Both the position numbers and the translations under genes were made by a program. DNA of 64,000 bases from Opitutales bacterium (GTDB lineage: Bacteria > Verrucomicrobiota > Verrucomicrobiia > Opitutales > Coraliomargaritaceae), in the NCBI GenBank assembly GCA_018607135.1, contig JABBCA010000105.1:62001-126000 (forward strand), given 5' to 3'. The notes beneath the pieces are model-generated. The model did not search any database. It saw nothing but the letters and a program-made list of their open reading frames with translations, and was not told the DNA's origin. Below are positions 16,598 to 28,107 of this stretch, piece after piece (the first letter of the stretch is position 1; the number at the start of each line of letters is the position of its first letter).

Positions 16598-17895
16598 TGT
16601 CCACTGATATAAACGAGAAACTGCAGAGCAATCGCAATGCGATCGATTCGATCGACCATCAAGTGGTCAAGTTGCTCAATCAACGTGTCTTGCTGGATGG
16701 AGGCGCGAATGAAGAGCAGGTGCTTGCCAAAGTGGCGAAGTATAATCCAGGTCCATTGACCGATGCCACGCTGCAAGCGATTTATCGCGCGCTGATGCTC
16801 GCCGGCCTCGATCCCGCTGCCAAAGCCACCGATGTATCTATTACTGACGAGCTGGATTTAAGTATTGTCACTTTATTGAGCCAACGTGTGAAGCACGCTG
16901 CCGAGATCGGTAAGATTAAACACGCCAACGGCGCAGATTATTACGACCCCACTCGTGAGGCGCAGGTCATGGCAAAGGTCACTTCGTTGAACCCTGGGCC
17001 GATTAAAAATAGCACAATTTGTTCAGTCTATCGTGAGGTGATTTCGGGCTCAATCTCATTAGAGAAGAAGCTGGTGATCGGCTATCTTGGACCTGAGGCG
17101 ACTTACACGCATCAAGCGGCAATCTCAAACTTCGGGGTCAGTCTCGATTATCGCGCGATCAAAACAATTCCCGATGTCTTTCTTGAAGTTGAGTCGGGCG
17201 CTGCCGATTACGGCGTGGTGCCAATTGAAAATTCGACTGAAGGCGCGGTGTTCCACTCTATGGACATGCTGGTGGAGTCGGATCTACACATTTGCTCGCA
17301 AGTCTATATGGCCATTGAGCACTGCCTGATTTCGCAGTCACCGCTCGACCAAATTACTGAGGTGCGTTCAAAGGATCAAGCGCTTGGTCAATGCCGTGAT
17401 TGGCTGCATGCGAATCTGCCTAATGCGGATTTGGTGGATGTGGTCAGCACTGCGGAAGCGGTGCGCACTGCGAAAGAAACGTCGACTGTTGCTGCGGTTG
17501 CGAGTGCGCTTTCAGCCCAGCGTTATGGCGTGAAAATTCAAGCGCGTGGGATTCAAGATCGTGATGACAACGTCACTCGCTTTCTTGTCGTCGGCAAGAC
17601 GCGAGCCAAGCCGCTCGGTGATGGTCGCGACAAAACCAGTTTGGTGATTTCATTGCGCGACGAGTGTGGCGCACTTGAAAAAACACTGCATGCCTTCGCG
17701 ACACGCGGAATTAATTTGAGTAAGATCGAATCGCGCCCCAGCCGCAAGAAAGCATGGGACTACTACTTCTTCATCGATTTGATCGGCCACTACGACGACG
17801 AAAATGTGCAAGCCGCGCTCGCCGATCTCGTAGGGCATTGCCCCTTTGTGAAGTGGCTCGGCAGTTATCCCAATGACGAGCCTCCCTCCCAATAG
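16597..17895 (+). CDS. pheA: Chorismate mutase/prephenate dehydratase with duplicated mutase region
   Basis: Makes phenylpyruvate from chorismate. From ATG at 16597 (TAATG overlap with scpB) it has 432 residues, about 70 more than usual. Two AroQ-type helical segments are seen: residues 10-70 (IDHQVVKLLNQRV ... YNPGPL ... IYRALM) and 82-152 (LDLSIVTLLSQRV ... GKIKH ... DPTREAQVM ... LNPGPI ... VYREVI). The first lacks the stretch with the Lys, Asp and Arg active-site residues; the second keeps them. Prephenate dehydratase follows (GYLGPEATYTHQAA, PIENSTEGAV, DDNVTRFLV), then an ACT domain with GALEKTLHAFA and ESRPSRK, the usual phenylalanine-feedback site. Confidence 0.93.
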   Translation: MSTDINEKLQSNRNAIDSIDHQVVKLLNQRVLLDGGANEEQVLAKVAKYNPGPLTDATLQAIYRALMLAGLDPAAKATDVSITDELDLSIVTLLSQRVKHAAEIGKIKHANGADYYDPTREAQVMAKVTSLNPGPIKNSTICSVYREVISGSISLEKKLVIGYLGPEATYTHQAAISNFGVSLDYRAIKTIPDVFLEVESGAADYGVVPIENSTEGAVFHSMDMLVESDLHICSQVYMAIEHCLISQSPLDQITEVRSKDQALGQCRDWLHANLPNADLVDVVSTAEAVRTAKETSTVAAVASALSAQRYGVKIQARGIQDRDDNVTRFLVVGKTRAKPLGDGRDKTSLVISLRDECGALEKTLHAFATRGINLSKIESRPSRKKAWDYYFFIDLIGHYDDENVQAALADLVGHCPFVKWLGSYPNDEPPSQ

Positions 17896-18016
17896 TTCAG
17901 TTTAGTGTAATTCCCAATGGTTCGCGCGATGCAAGTTTTAGGATGGCATGCGGATGTTGCTCAGTTGTTTAGTGGTAATGCGACTCGTTCGTCATCGTTC
18001 GAATACCATCTTGCTT

Positions 18017-19222
18017 CTAGAACTGGTAGCTCAGAGAGAAAGCAAACGCTTTGCTGTCTAGGTCGTAGTCGCCATCGATTGTCGGTGATGTGGTGTTGCC
18101 GCGGACGCTGCGCTCACTGGCGAATGCCTGTTGGTAAGTAATTTGCCAGCTTAGGTGGTCGTAGCTCCGGCCTACGCCAATAGAGAAGAAGTGACGGTCT
18201 GAATCGGGGACGATTGGCAGTAAATCGTCGTCTGGAATGGCACTCTCTACGTAGGTGTAGCCTGCGCTAACATGCCAGCCGTTATCGAAGTAGCGAGTCG
18301 CGCCCAGTTCCCAGATCAGAGCAGATTCCCAGTTGAGTTTATAGGTCGCTCCAGGAACGCCCTTTAAAGTGAGTTCGTTAACGCGGTCCCAATTGGTCCA
18401 ATCGATGTTCAACTCGATGTTCCAATTTTCAGTTGGGCGATAAGAGTATCCAAAGACAATCGACTCGGGGAAAACTAGATCGGCTTCTGCGTCAAGCGGC
18501 ACCGTAATCGGCCCATCAGGCCCGAAACCCACCGCCGCAGTTGCAGTGCCATCGTAACTCACATTGGTTTTAGCCTGGTAGTTCAATCCAAACGCATGGT
18601 GTTCTGTGGGCTTCCATAAGAGTGAGAGCGAATAGCCGAAGACTTGATCCTTGCCGTCGAATTCGAGTGCGTTCGCTTTGAGGTCGACTTCGGTATCGTC
18701 GAAGCTGACGCCTGCAGCAATCGACACTGTCTGGGTGATTTGCCATGTGGCGACCGCATGATATTTAACGTATTCAAGTTTCGCTTGATACGGCACTGAT
18801 GCCAGTGGGTTTGGGAAAGGTGCTGTAAATGCGGCGTCGCTGCCCCAGTCAGAAGCGAGCGCGAAAGGTGCATATGCGCCGATTCCGATTGCAAAAGGTG
18901 AGTCTGCGAAGGTGTGGCTGGCAAAAAAGCTTGGCACTGTTTGGAAGTCGTCATCCATATCATCACTGCCGAGTAGTGTGTCTGCTTCGTAACCCAAGGA
19001 TATGGAATAAATGCTGCCGTGAACTTGTGTGCCCTTAAGTTGCGTAAGGCCTGCGGCATTATAGAAAACTGCAGAGGGGTTATCCGCTGTAGCAGTAAAT
19101 GCGTTGCCGCGTGCCGTTGCAAAGGCATCGACATATGCGATGCGAGTGGCGGCCGCGTCGGCCATAGTGCTAATGAGCGCAGCGATCCCAGTAATCAGGG
19201 GCAGTTTATAAAGTGTTGTCAT
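18017..19222 (-). CDS. FadL/OmpP1/TodX-type outer-membrane hydrophobic-compound channel
   Basis: A 401-residue outer-membrane beta-barrel for long-chain fatty acids or other hydrophobic molecules. Signal peptide about 1-24, then the FadL plug signature, ARGNAFTATADNPSAVFYNAAGLTQLKG in outline (segments NAFTATADNPS and VFYNAAGLTQL). Multiple amphipathic strands follow, ending with the aromatic C-terminus FSLSYQF required for BAM insertion. Its start lies 1 nt after the histidine kinase stop, so the two form one transcription unit. FadL proteins also admit long-chain signal lipids in other bacteria, which matters given the divergent neighbours. Confidence 0.93.
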   Translation of the reverse strand: MTTLYKLPLITGIAALISTMADAAATRIAYVDAFATARGNAFTATADNPSAVFYNAAGLTQLKGTQVHGSIYSISLGYEADTLLGSDDMDDDFQTVPSFFASHTFADSPFAIGIGAYAPFALASDWGSDAAFTAPFPNPLASVPYQAKLEYVKYHAVATWQITQTVSIAAGVSFDDTEVDLKANALEFDGKDQVFGYSLSLLWKPTEHHAFGLNYQAKTNVSYDGTATAAVGFGPDGPITVPLDAEADLVFPESIVFGYSYRPTENWNIELNIDWTNWDRVNELTLKGVPGATYKLNWESALIWELGATRYFDNGWHVSAGYTYVESAIPDDDLLPIVPDSDRHFFSIGVGRSYDHLSWQITYQQAFASERSVRGNTTSPTIDGDYDLDSKAFAFSLSYQF

Positions 19223-19223
19223 G

Positions 19224-21239
19224 TTAGAGCGGAGTCGGAGCCAGTGTCGTGGGTAGTTGAATGAGTAAGTCCCAATCGTTTATTTCAGTGCGTTGGTTGA
19301 GTTGAACAAATCCGTGGTGTGTTTCGATGATTTTTTTCGCGACCGAGAGACCTAGGCCGACACCTGTAGGGCGTGAGGTATAAAAGGGTTCAGTGGCTTG
19401 TTCGATAGATTCATTAGAGAAGCCGGGGCCGCTGTCGCGCATGGTTATGTTTAAGGAGTTCTCTTCGGTGCGCACGACACGGACTTGTATCTTTGCCGCA
19501 GAAGCTTCGCTTGCTTGTATCGCGTTTAAGAAAATTTCTTCAAAGGCATAAGTCATGCCTTCGATGTCGCCCTTGAGGTCAGATGGTCTGGGTAGGTCGC
19601 CGAGTTGTAGGTGCGCCGTAGTGTTCGCAGTTGTTTTTTTTGCGGCCTCAAATGCAGCGTTAAGGATAGATCCTAAGTCCGCCGTCTGTTCGGCCGGATT
19701 TGAGTTTTGAGCGAGATAAAGCATCTGCTCGCTGAAGCGCTGAATCCTGTCGGTTTCATTCTTGAGAGCAGTTTTAAGGCTGGCCTGAAATACGGGCTGA
19801 TCGATTTTCTTGTCGATTAATTGCAAGTGCGTGGTGATGGGCACTAGTGCGTTGCGTATTTCGTGTGCGAAACGCTCAGCAATGAGCCCGATGAGTTCGC
19901 TTTTAGAGTCTTCCAGTGCTTTTTGCTTATTCGCTTCGATGTGAGTAAAGTCTTCCAGAACCACCATGGTCGGGCGGGGCAGTAGCTCGAGTTCTTCGTT
20001 GTTTTTAAATGGAAAAATTGAGGCTTGATAGATTTTGTTCCCAGCTGGGCTAGAGAGCTGAAAGGGCCTAGGTAGCTCGCCTTTTTCTACTGCACGGTGA
20101 ATCGGTGCTGCTAGTTCGCTCGGTAGTTCTGCGAACTCAATCGAGCGACTCTCTTGGGGTTCAATTTGTAGGAAGCGCTTGGCGGCACGGTTTGCGTATA
20201 GAATGTCGAGTTCTTCATTGATGACAATTGCGCCACTCGTCATCGAGCTGAGCACATTTTCAATGAGAGTCCCGTGGCGGCCGATTTCAGCGTGTAAGCG
20301 GCTGTTGCGAATGGCTAAGCCAAGCTCCTCCATGAGTAAATAGAGTAATTGGAGTTCGTCTTCAGTGTATCCACGACCCGTTACAGGGCCGTTTAAAACG
20401 GCAACACCAATGGTTCTTTCGCGATCGGTAATAGGCACTGCAAGGTCGCAGCCCAATACTTTAAATTCTTTTTGGATCGCATTACTTTGACCTTCGAAGT
20501 GGCTCTGATGGCAGTCTTGGAGTGTTAAGATGTGTGGCTGTTGTTGAATCGTTTTGCCGATGCCCACTTCGCGACTGAGCTGAAAGCAGTCGATAAGATC
20601 TGCTGGAAGGCCGAGCGAAGCGATGCACGTGAGGTGGTGCGGGTCGCGATCTTTGATGATCGTCTGCTTTGCAGAGGACTCGAGGAAGATACCCATTCGG
20701 CTAAAGCTAATGTGCTCTCTGAGCTTTAGTGCAAAATGCTGTGTGAACGCTCTATAATCTAAGCTGAAGCCTAAAATATTAGAGAAGTCACGAAGGATGT
20801 GTAAGGCCGACGATGAACGTGAGCGTTCCTTGATGTTTTGAGTCGTGGCTGGTTGCGTGATGACGTTAGCAACTTGAGTGCTGCTTAAGCTGTGTCGAGA
20901 GATGATACGCTGTAGGCTCTGCGTGGGTAGTGGCTCTGAAAAATAGAGGTCTGCACCGAACTCAAACGAGCGTTGTTCCTCATCAAGGGAATAGCTCTCA
21001 GAGATGACCATGACTGGAGTCTCGGGAGAAAGCTCTGACAGTGCTTTAAGATCGTTCACTAGTTTCGCATCGCCAGAATTACTGTAGATAATCGCCAAGT
21101 CGATGGCTCCACGTGAGAGGATTGAGCGTGCGGCTTCTGGGCTGTTCTTGTTTACGATTCTTAGCTCTGGAGCCGCCAAGGCCTCCCGTAAATTATCCGG
21201 GATCGTGGCATCGTAACTAATGAGTAGAATATGGCTCAC
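19224..21239 (-). CDS. Histidine kinase: pseudo-receiver, GAF, PAS-like, HisKA, HATPase
   Basis: 671 residues, no TM segment. Residues 1-118 have a receiver fold but the phospho-acceptor Asp is replaced by Tyr52 (DLAIIYSNSG) and the conserved Lys by Glu102 (YFSEPLP), so it cannot work as a normal receiver. A GAF domain spans about 150-315, a PAS-like segment about 325-435, HisKA has His459 in RFAHEIRNALVP, and HATPase_c shows LNAIQAS, DSGPGFS and TGVGLGLSVAKK. A cytosolic kinase sensing a small molecule or protein partner is likely. It is cotranscribed with the FadL gene and divergent from the LuxD-methyltransferase block. No cognate response regulator is adjacent in the operon. Confidence 0.9.
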   Translation of the reverse strand: MSHILLISYDATIPDNLREALAAPELRIVNKNSPEAARSILSRGAIDLAIIYSNSGDAKLVNDLKALSELSPETPVMVISESYSLDEEQRSFEFGADLYFSEPLPTQSLQRIISRHSLSSTQVANVITQPATTQNIKERSRSSSALHILRDFSNILGFSLDYRAFTQHFALKLREHISFSRMGIFLESSAKQTIIKDRDPHHLTCIASLGLPADLIDCFQLSREVGIGKTIQQQPHILTLQDCHQSHFEGQSNAIQKEFKVLGCDLAVPITDRERTIGVAVLNGPVTGRGYTEDELQLLYLLMEELGLAIRNSRLHAEIGRHGTLIENVLSSMTSGAIVINEELDILYANRAAKRFLQIEPQESRSIEFAELPSELAAPIHRAVEKGELPRPFQLSSPAGNKIYQASIFPFKNNEELELLPRPTMVVLEDFTHIEANKQKALEDSKSELIGLIAERFAHEIRNALVPITTHLQLIDKKIDQPVFQASLKTALKNETDRIQRFSEQMLYLAQNSNPAEQTADLGSILNAAFEAAKKTTANTTAHLQLGDLPRPSDLKGDIEGMTYAFEEIFLNAIQASEASAAKIQVRVVRTEENSLNITMRDSGPGFSNESIEQATEPFYTSRPTGVGLGLSVAKKIIETHHGFVQLNQRTEINDWDLLIQLPTTLAPTPL

Positions 21240-21673
21240 AAATCGTAGGTTAAATAATTGTCAAAGGTGCCTACGAAGTGCAACAACCATTTCTTTAGGC
21301 CAAACGATGAATCACGATCTTTAAACGAGGAGTTTCGATCTCTGGGTGCTTGATGGCTAGCCAGCTTTCCTTGGTCGTGCGCTTGAAGATTATTCATAAA
21401 GAGAGTCTTTTAGAAACGCTTCGGTGCGACACGCGCATGGCTGTCCTGCAGCTTTGTGGTTACGTAGCATTCGGTGCGCTTTCGAAACCTTCGACGGTGG
21501 CGAACACTTGGCGATCCTATCGCACTTTCTGACTTGGAGTGCTGTCTGAAAAATCTGGATACAAACGGATTTCTGGGGGGTATACCTTGTTTTGCTACTC
21601 ATTGATTCGCAAAGCTTTGCTTTAATCGAATCTTTGATTGCATCTCGTGGTAAAATTATCACTAGTGTGGAGC
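21240..21673. other. Divergent intergenic region, 434 bp
   Basis: Separates the minus-strand kinase-FadL operon from the plus-strand LuxD-methyltransferase operon and so should hold both promoters. I see no gene and no convincing operator. A short palindrome GCAAAGCTTTGC lies near 21609-21620. Confidence 0.45.
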
Positions 21674-23368
21674 ATGTCTACCGCTAATGAAGCGTATGAG
21701 GTATCTGATATAACGAGTCGACTCGTTACCTTTTCTGGACCAAATGGGCGTAGAATTGTGGGTTATCTCGACGAAGGAGTTGAAGCTTTATGGAATGAGC
21801 GAGTTGTGGTGCTGGCGCCTCGTTATGGTGAAACAAAGAAGAATAATCTGAAGCTTTCGTATTTATTCGCAGCCAATGGATTTAAGGTGCTGAGGTTCGA
21901 TCAGACGAACCATATCGGCGAAAGCGACGGCTCGATGGATCAGTATACGCTGATCAATGTGACCAATGATATACAGTCGGTGGTGGATCATGTAGATCGT
22001 TTTTTCGAGCCCACTGAAATCATTTTGATGACGCTTAGCCTGTCTGCTCGTTGTGGTTTACGCGCCTGCGCTTTGGATCCGCGTATTTCTCGTCATGTCA
22101 GCCTGGTCGGGATGGTGAATATGGATCGCACGCTAAAGGCGATTTATAATCGGGACTTCTTTGGTGAATTGGCTGCAGGTGCTCAGTGGAGTCTGGTTGA
22201 TATCTTAGGTTTTGAGATCGATGGAGCGCGCTTTTACCAAAGCTTATTGGAAACAAACATGTTGAATCTAGAGGGCGCCTTGGCAGATGCCGATCAAGTG
22301 ACGATTCCTGCCTTACATATTTGCGCTGAGAACGATCGCTGGGTGGACCAAGCTGAGGTGGAAGCGGTGATGTTGCGTTGTAAGTTCGGACGTGTCGAAG
22401 TGGTGAAGAATGTTGGCCATGAGATTAACGAAAATCCAGAGGCATTGAATCTGGCGTTCGGCAGTATGCTAGCGTTTTGTCGTAGTGGTTTGGATGAGAA
22501 GCACATCACCAATTGTGTGCCCTCGAAGGCGACTCTTTTGGCTCAAAATAAGTTAGAGCGCACACAGCTAAAAGCAGTGCTGCAGTTTACCCAAAAAGAG
22601 CCTGAGTTCTGGGGAGAGTATTTGGGTAAGTTTGGTATCATCGAATCAGCTGCTTATTATTCTGAGTATTTTCAAACGGTTTCTAGCTTATTAGGTGCCA
22701 TCGAATCCTACGATGTAATCGTAGATGCTGGTTGTGGAAATGGCTTCTATGGGGTGTGCGTCTTGCGAGCTTTGTTGCAAAGCATTCAAGCGCAGCATTC
22801 GGTGCCGAATTCAGTGCATTATTGTGGTATTGATTTAACTTCTGAAGGCTTGTTGCGCTCCTATTCGCGGCATGCGCAAGAGCTGATTTCTCTACAGCGC
22901 GAGGCCATGCAGGCGCAAGGCACTGTTGGGTTCTCGTATCGTAAAATTGATTTTGATACGATTGGGAAAGTGGAGGCTGCGACCTTACCTTTTGCAGACG
23001 CAAGTGTTCACAAGATTTGCAGCAGCTTAGTGCTTTCTTATCTGCAAGAGCCAGAACATCTGATGCGAGAATGTTATCGAGTTTTACAGGCTGATGGCGT
23101 CGCAGTTTTTTCGACAATGAAGCCCGGGTGCGATATGACAGTGTTGTATCATGATTATGTGACACAGGATACGAAAGTGCATGCAGAAAAGGATGCGGCG
23201 GACCTTTTGAGCGCAGCAGGGCGCATTAAATTGAAGAAGGATGCGGGTGTGTATGCGTTCTTTGATTTTGAGGAGTTGGAATATTTGGCTCGTAAGGCAG
23301 GTTTTTCGAAAGTTAACTGTGTGCGTTCTTTCGGTGGACAGGCTAACGTGATCCGAGTTGTGAAGTGA
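21674..23368 (+). CDS. LuxD-like acyl-ACP thioesterase fused to SAM methyltransferase
   Basis: A 564-residue two-domain protein. Residues 1-275 form an alpha/beta hydrolase resembling LuxD, the myristoyl-ACP thioesterase of lux operons: ANGFKVLRFDQTNHIGESDG matches the LuxD YDSLHHVGLSSG region. The nucleophile elbow TLSLSAR (Ser122) matches its unusual AxSxS elbow, Asp221 is in ENDRWVDQ, and His249 in VGHEINEN. Residues about 300-564 are a class I methyltransferase with SAM motif I VDAGCGNGFYG (350-360) and acidic motif CGIDLTSEGLL. Inferred: release of a fatty acid from ACP, then methylation, perhaps to a methyl ester. ATG at 21674 is preferred; 21638 is possible. The next gene starts by GTGA overlap. 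Confidence 0.85.
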   Translation: MSTANEAYEVSDITSRLVTFSGPNGRRIVGYLDEGVEALWNERVVVLAPRYGETKKNNLKLSYLFAANGFKVLRFDQTNHIGESDGSMDQYTLINVTNDIQSVVDHVDRFFEPTEIILMTLSLSARCGLRACALDPRISRHVSLVGMVNMDRTLKAIYNRDFFGELAAGAQWSLVDILGFEIDGARFYQSLLETNMLNLEGALADADQVTIPALHICAENDRWVDQAEVEAVMLRCKFGRVEVVKNVGHEINENPEALNLAFGSMLAFCRSGLDEKHITNCVPSKATLLAQNKLERTQLKAVLQFTQKEPEFWGEYLGKFGIIESAAYYSEYFQTVSSLLGAIESYDVIVDAGCGNGFYGVCVLRALLQSIQAQHSVPNSVHYCGIDLTSEGLLRSYSRHAQELISLQREAMQAQGTVGFSYRKIDFDTIGKVEAATLPFADASVHKICSSLVLSYLQEPEHLMRECYRVLQADGVAVFSTMKPGCDMTVLYHDYVTQDTKVHAEKDAADLLSAAGRIKLKKDAGVYAFFDFEELEYLARKAGFSKVNCVRSFGGQANVIRVVK

Positions 23369-25512
23369 ATACCTACTTAATCATATCATCGATAGCGAAT
23401 TGCCTAGCCGCATTGTTGCTGGTTGGGAATATTCTCTCGTCGAGGCGTAGGAACCCAGTTGCCTATCGTTTCGTATGGTTTTTAGTTTCGGTTGCTGGAT
23501 GGGCAGGTGCATATGTATTCTGGCGTTATTCGAGTAGTGAAGAAAGCGCACTGTTGTTTTGTAAGATACTCACGAGTTTTTCCATTTTCATTTCTTTGAC
23601 CTTGTATGACTTCTGCTTAAAGCTGAGTGGTAAGCTTGGCCGATTGAGCGTCGGCTTTGGATACATTGTTGGCTTAGTGATTGTGGGACTGACAGTAGGT
23701 GGTTCGATCGTTGCTGGAGTCTCATCAAAACATGGGCATACGTTTTGGCCAGATGCAGGACCGTTGATGCCCTTGTATCTTATGTTTTTTGCGGGCTACT
23801 TATTGGCGAGTGGTTGGATACTTGTGGTGAACTGTCGGTATCATTTAGGGGCTCGTTCAAAAGACTCACTGTTTGTATTATTTGTCTGTTGCATTGGCTT
23901 TATCGGGGGTGCGACGAATTTCCCGCTCTGGTTTGATATTCCAGTTCAGCCCTATGGGAATGGCTTGGTCGCGGTTTATGTCCTTTTGATGGGATATGGC
24001 TTGTATGAAAATCGCTATCTAAAGGTTGGGGTGGATCTTTACCGTTTCATCATTAGTGCGTCGCTGAGTGTTTCCGCGGCGGTTTTTTATACGCTGATCT
24101 TCGGTTTTTATCAGTCTTACATTGGTAGTGAAGTGACCCAAAGTGGTTTGTGGCTGCAAGGGGTGTGGGCGTTTTTTGTAAGTGCTTTAATCTTTTGGGG
24201 TGTGCCCCGTTTGAAGCTACTGGTAGAAATTGCGTTTGCTCGGGTTTTTCAAAACGGTTTGAACGATGCCATCGTTTCTCTGAAGACATTACCCTCACGG
24301 ATTGCGGATCTTTTGGATGAGCAAGAAGTTCTCTCGGAGGTTCAATCGACAATTGTTTCCTCCTTGGAAGTCGATCGTGTGGCTATCTTGCGATTGGATT
24401 CATTGAGTGGATACTACCGCTGCGTCTGTGCGACCGATGCGTTCAGTCTTGGGGTTGAAGCATTTGAGCTGGAGCCAAACAGCGCATTGATTGAAGGCAT
24501 CGCCCAGCAACCGAAATGTTTGGTCTTGGATCAAATTTTTGAAGAGCTCTCGCCCATTTACTATGCAAGCTTGGTAGATTTACGTAATCGTTTCGATCTA
24601 TCAGTGATCGTGCCGATTTTTGTGGGACATGAAATTTTTGGTCTCATCTTGATCGGAAGGCCGAAGCATATGAAACTATGGCGCGGTGAAGAGTCTTCAA
24701 TGTTGTTTAATATCGGAGCTCAAGTCGGATTGAATTTTCGCACGCGTGATATCGAGCGACGTGCGAACGAAGTGGATAAACTAGTGGCACTAGGAACGAT
24801 GGCTGCCGGACTCTCGCACGAGATTCGAAATCCACTGGTATCGGTTCAAACTATGGCTTCGTTGATACAGTCTGGTAAGTCGATCGATGCGGTCTCGAAA
24901 GATTTTAAAGAAGTCCTTCTGCGAGATGTTAAACGTATCGGAAGCATCGTAGAAGGTGTGGCTTCTTACTCTCAAAATCAACAAGTGCGCAAGGTCCCTG
25001 TTTCAATTGTAGATGCCGTCCACGCAAGTGTGGCGATTTACCAGAAGCTTGCGGAGGATGCTGGAGTGGCACTCACGCTGGAATATTCAGATGAGCAGTC
25101 GACTGTGGTCTTAGGTAGTTACGATCAATTGGTGCAGGTGTTTAATAACTTAATTGAAAACGCGTTGCATGCCTTACGTTCGGTGGAGCATCCCAAGTTG
25201 TTGATACAGGTGAACCCACGAAGCAGCCTGGGGCATCGCCGTAAAAACTTGGTCGAGGTATTGGTAGTTGATAACGGGCCTGGAGTGCCCGCGGCCATAG
25301 TGAGTCGTGTTTTTGACCCTTTCATTACTTCGAAAGATACGGGGGATCGCGAGGATCAGCACGGTATGGGCTTGGGCCTAGCGATTACAAAACGTATCAT
25401 TGATAGATTAGGCGGTGTGATCAGTGTGTGCAATTTACCCCAAGGAGGCGCGAAGTTTATCGTGTCTTTGAAAGTCTTTAATTCGGAGGAGCGTCATGGC
25501 GAAGTCGAATAA
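23365..25512 (+). CDS. Multi-TM sensor histidine kinase with GAF domain
   Basis: 715 residues. Residues 1-300 hold about eight hydrophobic segments, resembling the N-terminal 7TM input domain of some histidine kinases (GLVAVYVLLMGYGLYENRYL at its end). A GAF domain spans about 315-455. HisKA has His485 in AAGLSHEIRNPLVS, and HATPase_c shows NNLIENALHAL, VDNGPGVP and GMGLGLAITKR. A membrane-embedded input domain suits a hydrophobic ligand. The GTG start overlaps the thioesterase-methyltransferase stop by 4 nt, strong evidence for coupling. It fills the position PhcS holds beside PhcB in Ralstonia. Confidence 0.9.
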   Translation: MNTYLIISSIANCLAALLLVGNILSSRRRNPVAYRFVWFLVSVAGWAGAYVFWRYSSSEESALLFCKILTSFSIFISLTLYDFCLKLSGKLGRLSVGFGYIVGLVIVGLTVGGSIVAGVSSKHGHTFWPDAGPLMPLYLMFFAGYLLASGWILVVNCRYHLGARSKDSLFVLFVCCIGFIGGATNFPLWFDIPVQPYGNGLVAVYVLLMGYGLYENRYLKVGVDLYRFIISASLSVSAAVFYTLIFGFYQSYIGSEVTQSGLWLQGVWAFFVSALIFWGVPRLKLLVEIAFARVFQNGLNDAIVSLKTLPSRIADLLDEQEVLSEVQSTIVSSLEVDRVAILRLDSLSGYYRCVCATDAFSLGVEAFELEPNSALIEGIAQQPKCLVLDQIFEELSPIYYASLVDLRNRFDLSVIVPIFVGHEIFGLILIGRPKHMKLWRGEESSMLFNIGAQVGLNFRTRDIERRANEVDKLVALGTMAAGLSHEIRNPLVSVQTMASLIQSGKSIDAVSKDFKEVLLRDVKRIGSIVEGVASYSQNQQVRKVPVSIVDAVHASVAIYQKLAEDAGVALTLEYSDEQSTVVLGSYDQLVQVFNNLIENALHALRSVEHPKLLIQVNPRSSLGHRRKNLVEVLVVDNGPGVPAAIVSRVFDPFITSKDTGDREDQHGMGLGLAITKRIIDRLGGVISVCNLPQGGAKFIVSLKVFNSEERHGEVE

Positions 25513-26929
25513 AGTGAAGCATGGACGCGTGGTTCAACTGGCGTCTGAGCCGCCAGCTCTGGCTGGGGATTACCTGCGGGCGTTTACAGCTGCGCTATCC
25601 AAGTTTAATGATTTCGATGCCTTCCTAGAGCGATTAAAGTTGGTGGTGTCTGAGGATGCGTATCTAGACGGGAGGGCGGTGCTGACGGAGTCTTCGTTGC
25701 TCAAAGCAGAGCTTCCTGACTTTGAGAATCTCTCGGCAGGTGCGACGGTCGTGGCAGTTTCTGGGGCAGCGGGTAATATGGGATACTTAAAGTATGCTGG
25801 ACGCAAAGATACGCAGCTCTTTGGTGCTGAAGATTTGCACCTATTGGGATCGATCGCTGGTTTTGTTGGGGCATTGATTCAGCAAGCGCAGGAGTCTCGA
25901 CGAAAGACCAAGGTAGAGCAGGTGCTGCATTATTTGATGAATCGCTTACCCCTAGGGGTCGTGTGTATGAACGGAGGAAATGAGCTGATGGTTCAGAGCC
26001 AACAAGCAGAACGGCTGTTGGGAGATGAAGGCGTAACACGTTTAACTAACGCTGCGGAGTTCAATGAGGATGCAAAGTTGAAAGTTCAGTTTCACTTGGT
26101 CGTCGACGGACGGTTGTTATTCGCGGAGGGGCGTCAGTTTACAATCGCCTCTGGCGAATACCTGAAGGTCTTTGTCATTTATGATTTATCAAAATCTCGC
26201 GAGACACTCATGATGCACCTTGAGCGAGAGGCGTATCGCAGCGAGTCGCGTGGAACCCCAGTTACGATTGCATTACTGGAGTCTAACGAAGTGGCAGGAG
26301 CAATCTATTCAAAGGCAAAGGAAGCAGCCAGTCAGATGCTACTTTCGCCAGATCAAGTTCAGCCCTTGGATGCGAATCGTTGTGCCTTGGTCTTTACTGG
26401 CAAACCACTTGTGCTGGTTCGTTATTTACTGAGGCAGATGCGTTTTATTCGCGAATCGAAGGGATTGAACGCCGCGGTCGTTGCTTATGATCAGGGTGTG
26501 TTATCAGATATGCCTGCAGAAACTTGGGTGGCGCGAGCGATTGCAAAACTACGACCGGCAGCTTCAAGTTTATTGCCAAGGTTCATCGCGATGGATCGCT
26601 ACCCGTCGGTGGTGGATTCACTGGCCCTGACACTTGCAGATCGTTGTGAGCTAGAAGAATGCCTAAATTTAGACGAGTCAATAAGGCGGATTGAGTCCGG
26701 CGATTTTGACGGTATGTTCTATGACTTGGATGCTTCCAGTCCGCAGCAACTACTTCAGTTGAAACGAGCGGCGGCCGTATGTGGTGCAGAGTTTAAGTTT
26801 TATTTTTGCACCTGTAGGCGCCGTTCCATGGTGGATCCTAACTTTGCGATCATGGAGACAGAGGTGGTCTTGCAGAAGCCGTTTCTCGCGGGTGAAGTGT
26901 CGGAGGTCTTTGCGCTCGATTTTGAATGA
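25496..26929 (+). CDS. GAF-PAS-like protein with degenerate GGDEF-like and receiver-like domains
   Basis: 477 residues, soluble. I read a GAF domain (about 25-135), a PAS-like segment (145-235, ending YLKVFVIYDLSKSRET), then a stretch at about 240-355 with the spacing of a GGDEF fold but without its motif, so not a working cyclase. A C-terminal receiver-like domain (about 365-477) has GDFDGMFYDLDASS, where an Asp remains near the acceptor site, and VVLQKPFLAGEV with the conserved Lys-Pro. No DNA-binding part is seen. Good ribosome-binding site GGAGGAG before ATG; the gene overlaps the preceding kinase by 17 nt. Probably a relay or scaffold in the same pathway. Domain calls from 240 on are tentative. 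Confidence 0.7.
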   Translation: MAKSNKVKHGRVVQLASEPPALAGDYLRAFTAALSKFNDFDAFLERLKLVVSEDAYLDGRAVLTESSLLKAELPDFENLSAGATVVAVSGAAGNMGYLKYAGRKDTQLFGAEDLHLLGSIAGFVGALIQQAQESRRKTKVEQVLHYLMNRLPLGVVCMNGGNELMVQSQQAERLLGDEGVTRLTNAAEFNEDAKLKVQFHLVVDGRLLFAEGRQFTIASGEYLKVFVIYDLSKSRETLMMHLEREAYRSESRGTPVTIALLESNEVAGAIYSKAKEAASQMLLSPDQVQPLDANRCALVFTGKPLVLVRYLLRQMRFIRESKGLNAAVVAYDQGVLSDMPAETWVARAIAKLRPAASSLLPRFIAMDRYPSVVDSLALTLADRCELEECLNLDESIRRIESGDFDGMFYDLDASSPQQLLQLKRAAAVCGAEFKFYFCTCRRRSMVDPNFAIMETEVVLQKPFLAGEVSEVFALDFE

Positions 26930-26979: not shown

Positions 26980-28107
26980 ATGTCAGAAATTAAGCAAAAC
27001 ACTTCTTTGAGACGCATGCTCGTAGTCGATGACGAAGAGGGGCCGCGTCAGTCATTGAATATGATTTTTTCGGATGACTTCGATGTGACGGTTGCGTCCT
27101 CGGGGGAAGAGGCGATAGAGCTCTTTAAGCGGAAGTCGTTTAATATCGTGATTACGGATATTCGTATGCGTGGTTTAAGTGGTATCGACGTGTTGCGCGA
27201 GGTGAAGCAAAACGATCCGAATGCCGAGGTAATTGTATTGACTGCGTTTGAAACTTTGGAGACTGCGCGACAGGCAATCAGCTTGGGCGCGTCGGAGTAT
27301 TTAAAGAAGCCTTTTGATTTGAATCATATCCAGGAGGTCGTCGATCGATGCTATCGGAGCTACTTATTCGCGACGAAACAGGAGGAGATTGTGCGGCAAG
27401 GTGTGAATGCGGCGAAGACTAATTTTCTGGAAATTGTTAGCCATGAATTGAATACACCGATGAATGGTATTCTCGGTTTTATTGAGCTTTTAAAAGACAC
27501 CCATTTGGATGAAGAGCAGGACGAGTATGTCAGCACCATCCATGATTGTAGTGTGAAGTATTTTGAGCACGTGCAGGACATTTTGACGTATGCAAAACTC
27601 ACTGCAAGTGAGAGCGAGATGTCCAACAGTTCCTTTAATCCCGTGACAATGGTCTTGAAGTTGCTCAATGAAACTAGGCCCAAGGCGGGTGTGTCGCTGG
27701 ATTCTGATTTGCCACCGAGCTTACCAGCCTATGTTTCTGGTGCGGAGCAAGAGATTCGTATCGTTGTGCGTAAGTTGTTGCAGAATGCAGTGAAGTTTAC
27801 TGAGTCGGGCAGTGTTTCGCTGAAGATGAGTGCGCAGCCAATCTCAAGTAGTCAGGTGAAGTTGAGTTACCATGTGATGGATACTGGCACGGGAATCGAG
27901 CCCAGTTGGATCGAAGAGGGGAAGATTTTTGATGCATTTACTCAGGGAGATTCGTCGTCGCGCCGTTTATATGAAGGGCTGGGTTTAGGGCTTGCTTTGT
28001 GCAAGGCGCTTGCAGATCGAATGAAAGGAAATTTATCGGTGGAAAGCGCACTCGGGCAGGGGTGCGTGTTTACGTTTTCGGTCGTGGTGCGCGAGGAAGA
28101 AAGTTAA
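26980..28107 (+). CDS. Receiver-histidine kinase hybrid (response regulator with kinase output)
   Basis: 375 residues. The N-terminal receiver has [12 protein letters not shown], phospho-acceptor Asp60 in [10 protein letters not shown], Thr88 in VLTAFE and Lys110 in YLKKPFD. Instead of a DNA-binding output there is a HisKA with His155 in [12 protein letters not shown], then HATPase_c with [22 protein letters not shown] and [12 protein letters not shown]. This receiver-then-kinase order is the one described for PhcR of Ralstonia. It ends a block of four co-directional genes (50 nt gap from the previous one). A further regulator elsewhere must carry the signal to DNA. Confidence 0.92.

Follow-up and report, generated by a model that had tools for sequence, protein, structure and literature searches.

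We analysed a window of 64,000 nucleotides from an Opitutales bacterium (GenBank assembly GCA_018607135.1, contig JABBCA010000105.1, positions 62,001 to 126,000 of the forward strand), the window being that whole stretch at its full length. The genome comprises 3.53 Mb in 106 contigs, and its named relatives are Puniceicoccaceae and other Opitutales (Verrucomicrobiota). The subject of the analysis is a gene pair encoding a FadL-type channel and a soluble kinase (KIN), together with the divergent operon that it faces, whose first gene encodes a fusion of a LuxD-like hydrolase and a methyltransferase (LMT). In window coordinates the locus contains the following features.

18017–19222, minus strand: FadL-type outer-membrane channel (P0001), 401 residues from an ATG start, assigned by PF03349 and by fold
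19224–21239, minus strand: soluble kinase KIN (P0002), 671 residues from a GTG start, assigned by Pfam and by its kinase boxes
21240–21673, no strand: divergent intergenic (promoter) region between the kinase and LMT genes, with a weak inverted repeat at 21599–21609/21627–21637
21674–23368, plus strand: LMT (P0003), LuxD-like alpha/beta hydrolase fused to a class I methyltransferase (PF02273, Methyltransf_11)
23365–25512, plus strand: HK7 (P0004), membrane kinase with seven transmembrane segments (7TM), GAF, HisKA and HATPase domains (PF16927, PF01590, PF00512, PF02518)
25496–26929, plus strand: U5 (P0005), no Pfam match, modelled with PAS-like and C-terminal receiver-like parts
26980–28107, plus strand: RHK (P0006), receiver, HisKA and HATPase domains by Pfam, without a DNA-binding domain

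The open reading frame listed for LMT opens at TTG 21638, but alignment with relatives makes ATG 21674 the most likely start.

An earlier note on this sequence had described a FadL gene starting one nucleotide after the stop codon of a kinase gene, with the pair placed head-to-head with a thioesterase-methyltransferase operon. The coordinates and strands are correct: a single base separates the kinase stop from the FadL ATG, and in the window the pair stands head-to-head with the LMT operon. Among 37 kinase–FadL pairs, the candidate FadL start nearest the kinase stop was at most 8 nt away in 31, and the tight spacing is therefore not due to chance.

Conservation was surveyed in 372 genomes of the order Opitutales, with a kinase threshold of E ≤ 1e-40. 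LMT was present in 18 genomes, all of them among the 22 with the kinase, and the two cover the identical 14 of 100 genera (hypergeometric 4e-27, a value that ignores shared ancestry and serves as a guide only). A wider scan of contigs of 84,980 species, using peptide patterns fitted to this clade, yielded 43 LMT loci, all recorded as Verrucomicrobiota; adding the window and three more loci from the survey brings the number of distinct LMT loci to 47. HK7 follows LMT in all 47, and U5 is next to HK7 in all 40 with room for it. Of the 45 loci with at least 1.2 kb available upstream, 41 have the kinase gene next to LMT in divergent orientation, and FadL lies behind the kinase in 31 of the 38 loci with at least 2.8 kb available. 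By these counts the kinase is close to the core of the module and FadL is an accessory part. An LMT profile scan of 387 genomes of the phylum found the protein in six, all of the same order, and a tblastn search of plasmids with LMT gave one match, of 23% and annotated as an acyl transferase.

The 372 genomes contain 18 kinase–FadL pairs. Twelve are head-to-head with LMT (G000, G162, G152, G049, G227, G272, G328, G164, G196, G202, G336 and G028), that of G231 is interrupted by contig ends, and five lie elsewhere (G050, G310, G042 and two in G119). The pair is therefore not found mostly away from LMT, and the divergent association proposed in the earlier note stands. Five further kinases have no FadL neighbour (G308, G358, G106, G024 and G096). 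The kinase gene of G358 (L075/L114) contains a stop codon, and the LMT genes of L129 and L135 are split over two frames, which may reflect decay or assembly errors in individual genomes.

It could be argued that the head-to-head order is a neutral, inherited neighbourhood with no functional tie. Such neutrality would fit three genomes of family f24 (G106, G042 and G119), in which the LMT operon lacks a kinase neighbour (L099, L110 and L111); a fourth locus of this kind is L135, whose genome was not searched for the kinase. Yet the three f24 genomes still carry the kinase elsewhere, the arrangement is kept across families f1, f3 and f13, both genes occur in the same 14 genera, and a receiver-kinase gene occurs in either operon. 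We consider a neutral neighbourhood very improbable. A chance neighbourhood was rejected on the co-occurrence of LMT and kinase in genomes and on their adjacency in 41 of 45 loci.

In 31 loci the receiver-kinase gene belongs to the kinase operon, usually directly after FadL; in five (the window, L094, L096, L104 and L117) it follows U5 in the LMT operon. At no locus is it found in both operons, although at L128 an additional, weaker relative is encoded beyond U5 on the opposite strand. A tree of 42 of the 44 receiver-kinase sequences, those longer than 330 residues, contained two clades. The window-type clade, which has support of 100/100 and a long branch, holds the five LMT-operon genes together with that of L098, which lies behind FadL. 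The same kind of receiver-kinase can thus be at home in either operon. The kinase, called an orphan in the earlier note, is one only locally: the receiver-kinase is encoded in its own operon in the 31 relatives and in the divergent operon in the window's family. From the locus counts and the tree, a true orphan was rejected.

KIN comprises a degenerate receiver (residues 4–113) followed by GAF (168–310), PAS (326–399), HisKA (458–512) and HATPase_c (557–648) domains. GAF, PAS and HATPase_c pass their Pfam cut-offs; HisKA is below its cut-off, as is the N-terminal match to PF00072 (E 0.0033). The H, N and G boxes of the kinase are conserved in relatives, H and N each in 47 of 51 rows, with the remaining rows gapped. 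Taking the phospho-acceptor Asp of a receiver to lie on strand 3 and the Lys on strand 5, the window protein has Tyr and Glu at these positions, and hence lacks the phospho-accepting Asp. In the strand-3 column of the 51 rows Leu, Val and Ala are commonest, and Asp is not common. KIN is predicted to be a cytoplasmic kinase with a pseudo-receiver, GAF and PAS domains, transmembrane segments not having been sought by program. The GAF and PAS domains of the earlier description were found again; the degenerate N-terminal receiver had been overlooked.

The channel scored 138.3 bits for PF03349 (Toluene_X), whose cut-off is 29.7. Its model (pLDDT 86.8) is a barrel with an N-terminal hatch, as in E. 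coli FadL (1t16), which is the closest structure (Z 47.3, 1.9 Å over 362 residues) at a sequence identity of 17%; TodX-type hydrocarbon channels match less well (Z about 37). We take NPA to be the hatch motif of FadL channels, and most other families have it, whereas the window protein has NAA and its family NGA, NSA or NAA. Lys317 of E. coli FadL, which presumably has a role in binding, is opposite a gap in the window protein. The structure alignment contained 30 sequences, near-duplicates being left out. In a tree of 64 sequences, which took the 36 of 37 linked FadLs longer than 250 residues and skipped the paralogue rows L012 and L013 as duplicates of linked ones, all 36 kinase-linked channels fell inside a clade of 45 (support 100/99). 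The other nine members are those of G112, G206, G090, G201 and G271 (window's family) and of G024, G106, G033 and G008; the kinases of G024 and G106 are located elsewhere. On this phylogeny the subfamily is regarded as a dedicated clade.

FadL might serve to scavenge external fatty acids or hydrocarbons, with KIN sensing them; the chains would pass to membrane lipids and LMT would modify acyl chains without producing a signal. The fold, closest to that of E. coli FadL, is consistent with scavenging, as are the retention of FadL alone in G090 and the presence of β-oxidation families in two of ten genomes. Against it, the diagnostic β-oxidation families PF02771 and PF00725 were unmatched in the window genome, FadD and acyl-ACP synthetases not being among the searches; seven of nine other genomes tested also lacked both. 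The same families were matched in 10 and 7, respectively, of 14 control genomes. In addition, the FadL clade is linked to three or four kinase or receiver genes, not to catabolic genes. Scavenging is on balance unlikely. Given the two unmatched families, a role of the window channel in food uptake, feeding β-oxidation, is also unlikely, and nutrient uptake through β-oxidation was rejected for the window genome.

The N-terminal half of LMT resembles the acyl-ACP thioesterase LuxD. LMT matched PF02273 with 72.8 bits against a cut-off of 20.3, as well as Methyltransf_11, and the best match of its LuxD-like part in the Protein Data Bank was LuxD itself (1tht, E 1.9e-30). Residues S120, D219 and H247 are invariant in 18 rows and align with S114, D211 and H241 of 1tht, which we take to be the LuxD catalytic triad. 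Unlike LuxD, LMT is fused to a methyltransferase and is encoded among kinases, not luciferase genes. Compared over its whole chain, U5 gave weak fold matches (TM under 0.25), although its PAS-like and receiver parts were matched, and its N-terminus is GAF-like by inspection. The structure alignment of U5 held 31 sequences, again without near-duplicates, and its columns were counted in 37 of 41 sequences. At the phospho-acceptor position of the C-terminal receiver-like domain, 31 of the 37 have Glu and six, including the window (residue 410), have Asp; the receiver Lys is kept in 36, with one gap. From this pattern the U5 receiver is possibly fixed in an active-like state.

Kinase and FadL are also found beside other synthases. 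In G050, G310, G042 and G119 a FabF-like synthase gene is followed by kinase, FadL and receiver-kinase; these synthases are a second paralogue (39–42% to the FabF of the window), and each of these genomes also has a closer one (60–64%). G106 has the same arrangement with a FabF-like synthase (37%) but no FadL, and the runs in G050 and G310 also include a 7TM-type kinase. Downstream of FadL in G024 come an ICMT-type methyltransferase, then a FabF-like synthase and a 7TM kinase region. At L091 8468–19900 (G033) about 0.5 kb separates FadL from a polyketide synthase of the reducing type (PKS; KS-AT-DH-ER-KR-ACP); genes for a methyltransferase and a hybrid histidine kinase come after it, and the locus may be a polyketide counterpart of the module. 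Apart from linkage, the best clue to function is that acyl-chain synthases, methyltransferases and kinases keep recurring in this company. By eye, the FabF-like synthases adjoining kinase and FadL at L079 6372–7604 and L080 10922–12166 seem to be without the active-site Cys, which those of L083, L086 and L087 keep.

The nearest known parallel is the Phc system of Ralstonia, whose signal is methyl 3-hydroxymyristate or methyl 3-hydroxypalmitate (3-OH MAME/PAME). There the methyl ester is reported to be the product of PhcB; PhcS acts as sensor kinase, PhcR combines receiver and kinase, and PhcQ is a receiver protein (PMC8578825; also PMC6989110, PMC11960443). PhcBSRQ, as outlined in PMC8578825, and P0003–P0006 each form one operon with a methyltransferase, a sensor kinase, a receiver-plus-kinase and a receiver protein, and in both the receivers have no DNA-binding domain; the likeness is one of gene and domain content. 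The window locus differs in the fusion of a LuxD-like domain to the methyltransferase (the domain make-up of PhcB not being part of the comparison), in the extra sensory parts of U5, and in having a divergent arm, which encodes the soluble kinase and FadL. FadL is not mentioned in the main text of the Ralstonia papers PMC6989110 and PMC11960443. The clade-tuned pattern scan returned no Ralstonia record, although patterns so tuned do not exclude homology to the Ralstonia Phc proteins. In Sinorhizobium fredii, a member of the same channel family mediates uptake of a long-chain signal, according to passages of PMC9938287; that signal is an acyl-homoserine lactone (AHL), not the methylated lipid proposed here, and those passages describe no kinase or synthase encoded alongside fadL. 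Literature searches returned no such locus joining FadL with 3-OH MAME/PAME or with a kinase, methyltransferase, signal molecule or ketosynthase, and the titles and abstract openings searched named no lipid signalling system of Verrucomicrobiota.

By analogy, the best reading is that the locus would be a lipid quorum-sensing-like module comparable to PhcBSRQ, with a dedicated outer-membrane channel. In the mechanism that we infer, including its ligand, direction of transport and phosphotransfer, the LuxD-like domain of LMT would release an acyl chain from an acyl carrier and the enzyme would methylate it, giving a long-chain lipid signal, as its domains suggest. The signal is assumed to leave the cell by diffusion or in vesicles. 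Linkage, fold and the absence of β-oxidation enzymes point to FadL as the probable, dedicated outer-membrane entry port for the product of the module itself or of neighbouring cells. HK7 is the likely membrane receptor. KIN would act in the cytoplasm as the second input, responding to imported lipid or to pathway state. Both kinases would feed receiver proteins without DNA-binding domains (RHK and U5), in the manner of PhcS with PhcR and PhcQ in Ralstonia. The earlier note had allowed for import or export; import appears more likely, because FadL is reported to take up long-chain AHLs in S. fredii (PMC9938287). In a group of Verrucomicrobiota, genes apparently capable of producing a lipid messenger and several sensor kinases are kept beside FadL, and the channel therefore probably serves cell-to-cell signalling as its entry port.

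Several observations weigh against this reading. Seven of the 38 loci with kinase and sufficient sequence have no adjoining FadL (L102, L114, L116, L124, L127, L130 and L067); five of these genomes hold only distant FadLs (25–27% identity) and two have none at E 1e-5, so that FadL is not essential to the module. G090 retains an intact FadL after the rest of the module has been lost, the FadLs of G008 and G106 have unrelated neighbours, and G272 and G336 carry both PF02771 and PF00725. Furthermore, a motif present in the kinase–LMT promoter of other lineages was not found in the window's family, and it is not a top site in the window or in the FabF-type loci. The earlier proposal is supported as to linkage: the FadL–kinase pair belongs with the LMT operon, the FadL falls in a dedicated clade, and the two β-oxidation families are unmatched in the window genome. 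That the pair handles and reads the lipid is the inferred part. The kinase proved not to be a true orphan and FadL to be accessory.

A different role would be the making or remodelling of a surface or membrane lipid, FadL and the kinases monitoring the lipid state of the outer membrane without any diffusible signal. The dispensability of FadL in seven loci would suit this, and GAF/PAS kinases can sense internal state. However, three kinases plus receivers around one enzyme are more like Phc than like lipid biosynthesis operons, and related loci carry an enzyme of another type. Such lipid homeostasis is judged quite unlikely.

We hold it somewhat probable that Opitutales possess a lipid-signalling module made up of two operons and that kinase and FadL are one of its arms. 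A broader proposal is more tentative and rather doubtful: an undescribed form of lipid quorum sensing in Opitutales with a genetically linked entry port, in which a portable cassette (pseudo-receiver kinase, FadL and receiver-kinase) would be paired with the LuxD-methyltransferase fusion, with a FabF-like synthase or, for the FadL clade, also with a PKS and methyltransferase, each leading to a different hydrophobic signal. The crossing of the outer membrane by long-chain signals is often left to diffusion or vesicles. If the proposal is true, a conserved locus with its own FadL beside synthase and kinases makes the port part of the circuit, and Verrucomicrobiota gain a lipid signalling system.

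On the 3′ side of FadL the window carries a convergent chorismate mutase/prephenate dehydratase gene (pheA); downstream of RHK are panD and a gene for a BtuB-like receptor. Remains of the module at pheA/panD show repeated loss. In the congener G112 (L093 9157–10024) a FadL piece (253–401) is joined to an RHK piece (239–375) between pheA and panD; a single deletion from FadL into RHK removed kinase, LMT, HK7 and U5 as a block. The congener G206 (L156 6727–8523) has a FadL gene with one in-frame TGA beside panD, and G090 (L090 7657–9729) keeps panD and an intact FadL together with 47 residues of RHK. The module has been lost in two of the three congeners examined (the window, G112 and G206).

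A scan of positions 17880–21720 for sigma-70 promoters and terminators gave nothing above shuffles. The kinase–LMT promoters contain the motif mentioned above, approximately ACTTGCnCrTTGCATT, which scored 221 against about 60 in shuffles that do not preserve relatedness. L129 (LMT in two frames) was left out of motif training. A model trained without the window's family and L098 had its top site in the kinase–LMT promoter in 30 of the 47 loci, these being its own training lineages. The motif is a candidate shared operator outside the window's family; because it is not a top site in the window and the model was scored on its training lineages, no shared operator is claimed there. In most loci outside the window's family (for example L103, L112 and L128) the motif sits in the middle of the divergent promoter, and several loci have an inverted copy about 20 bp away.

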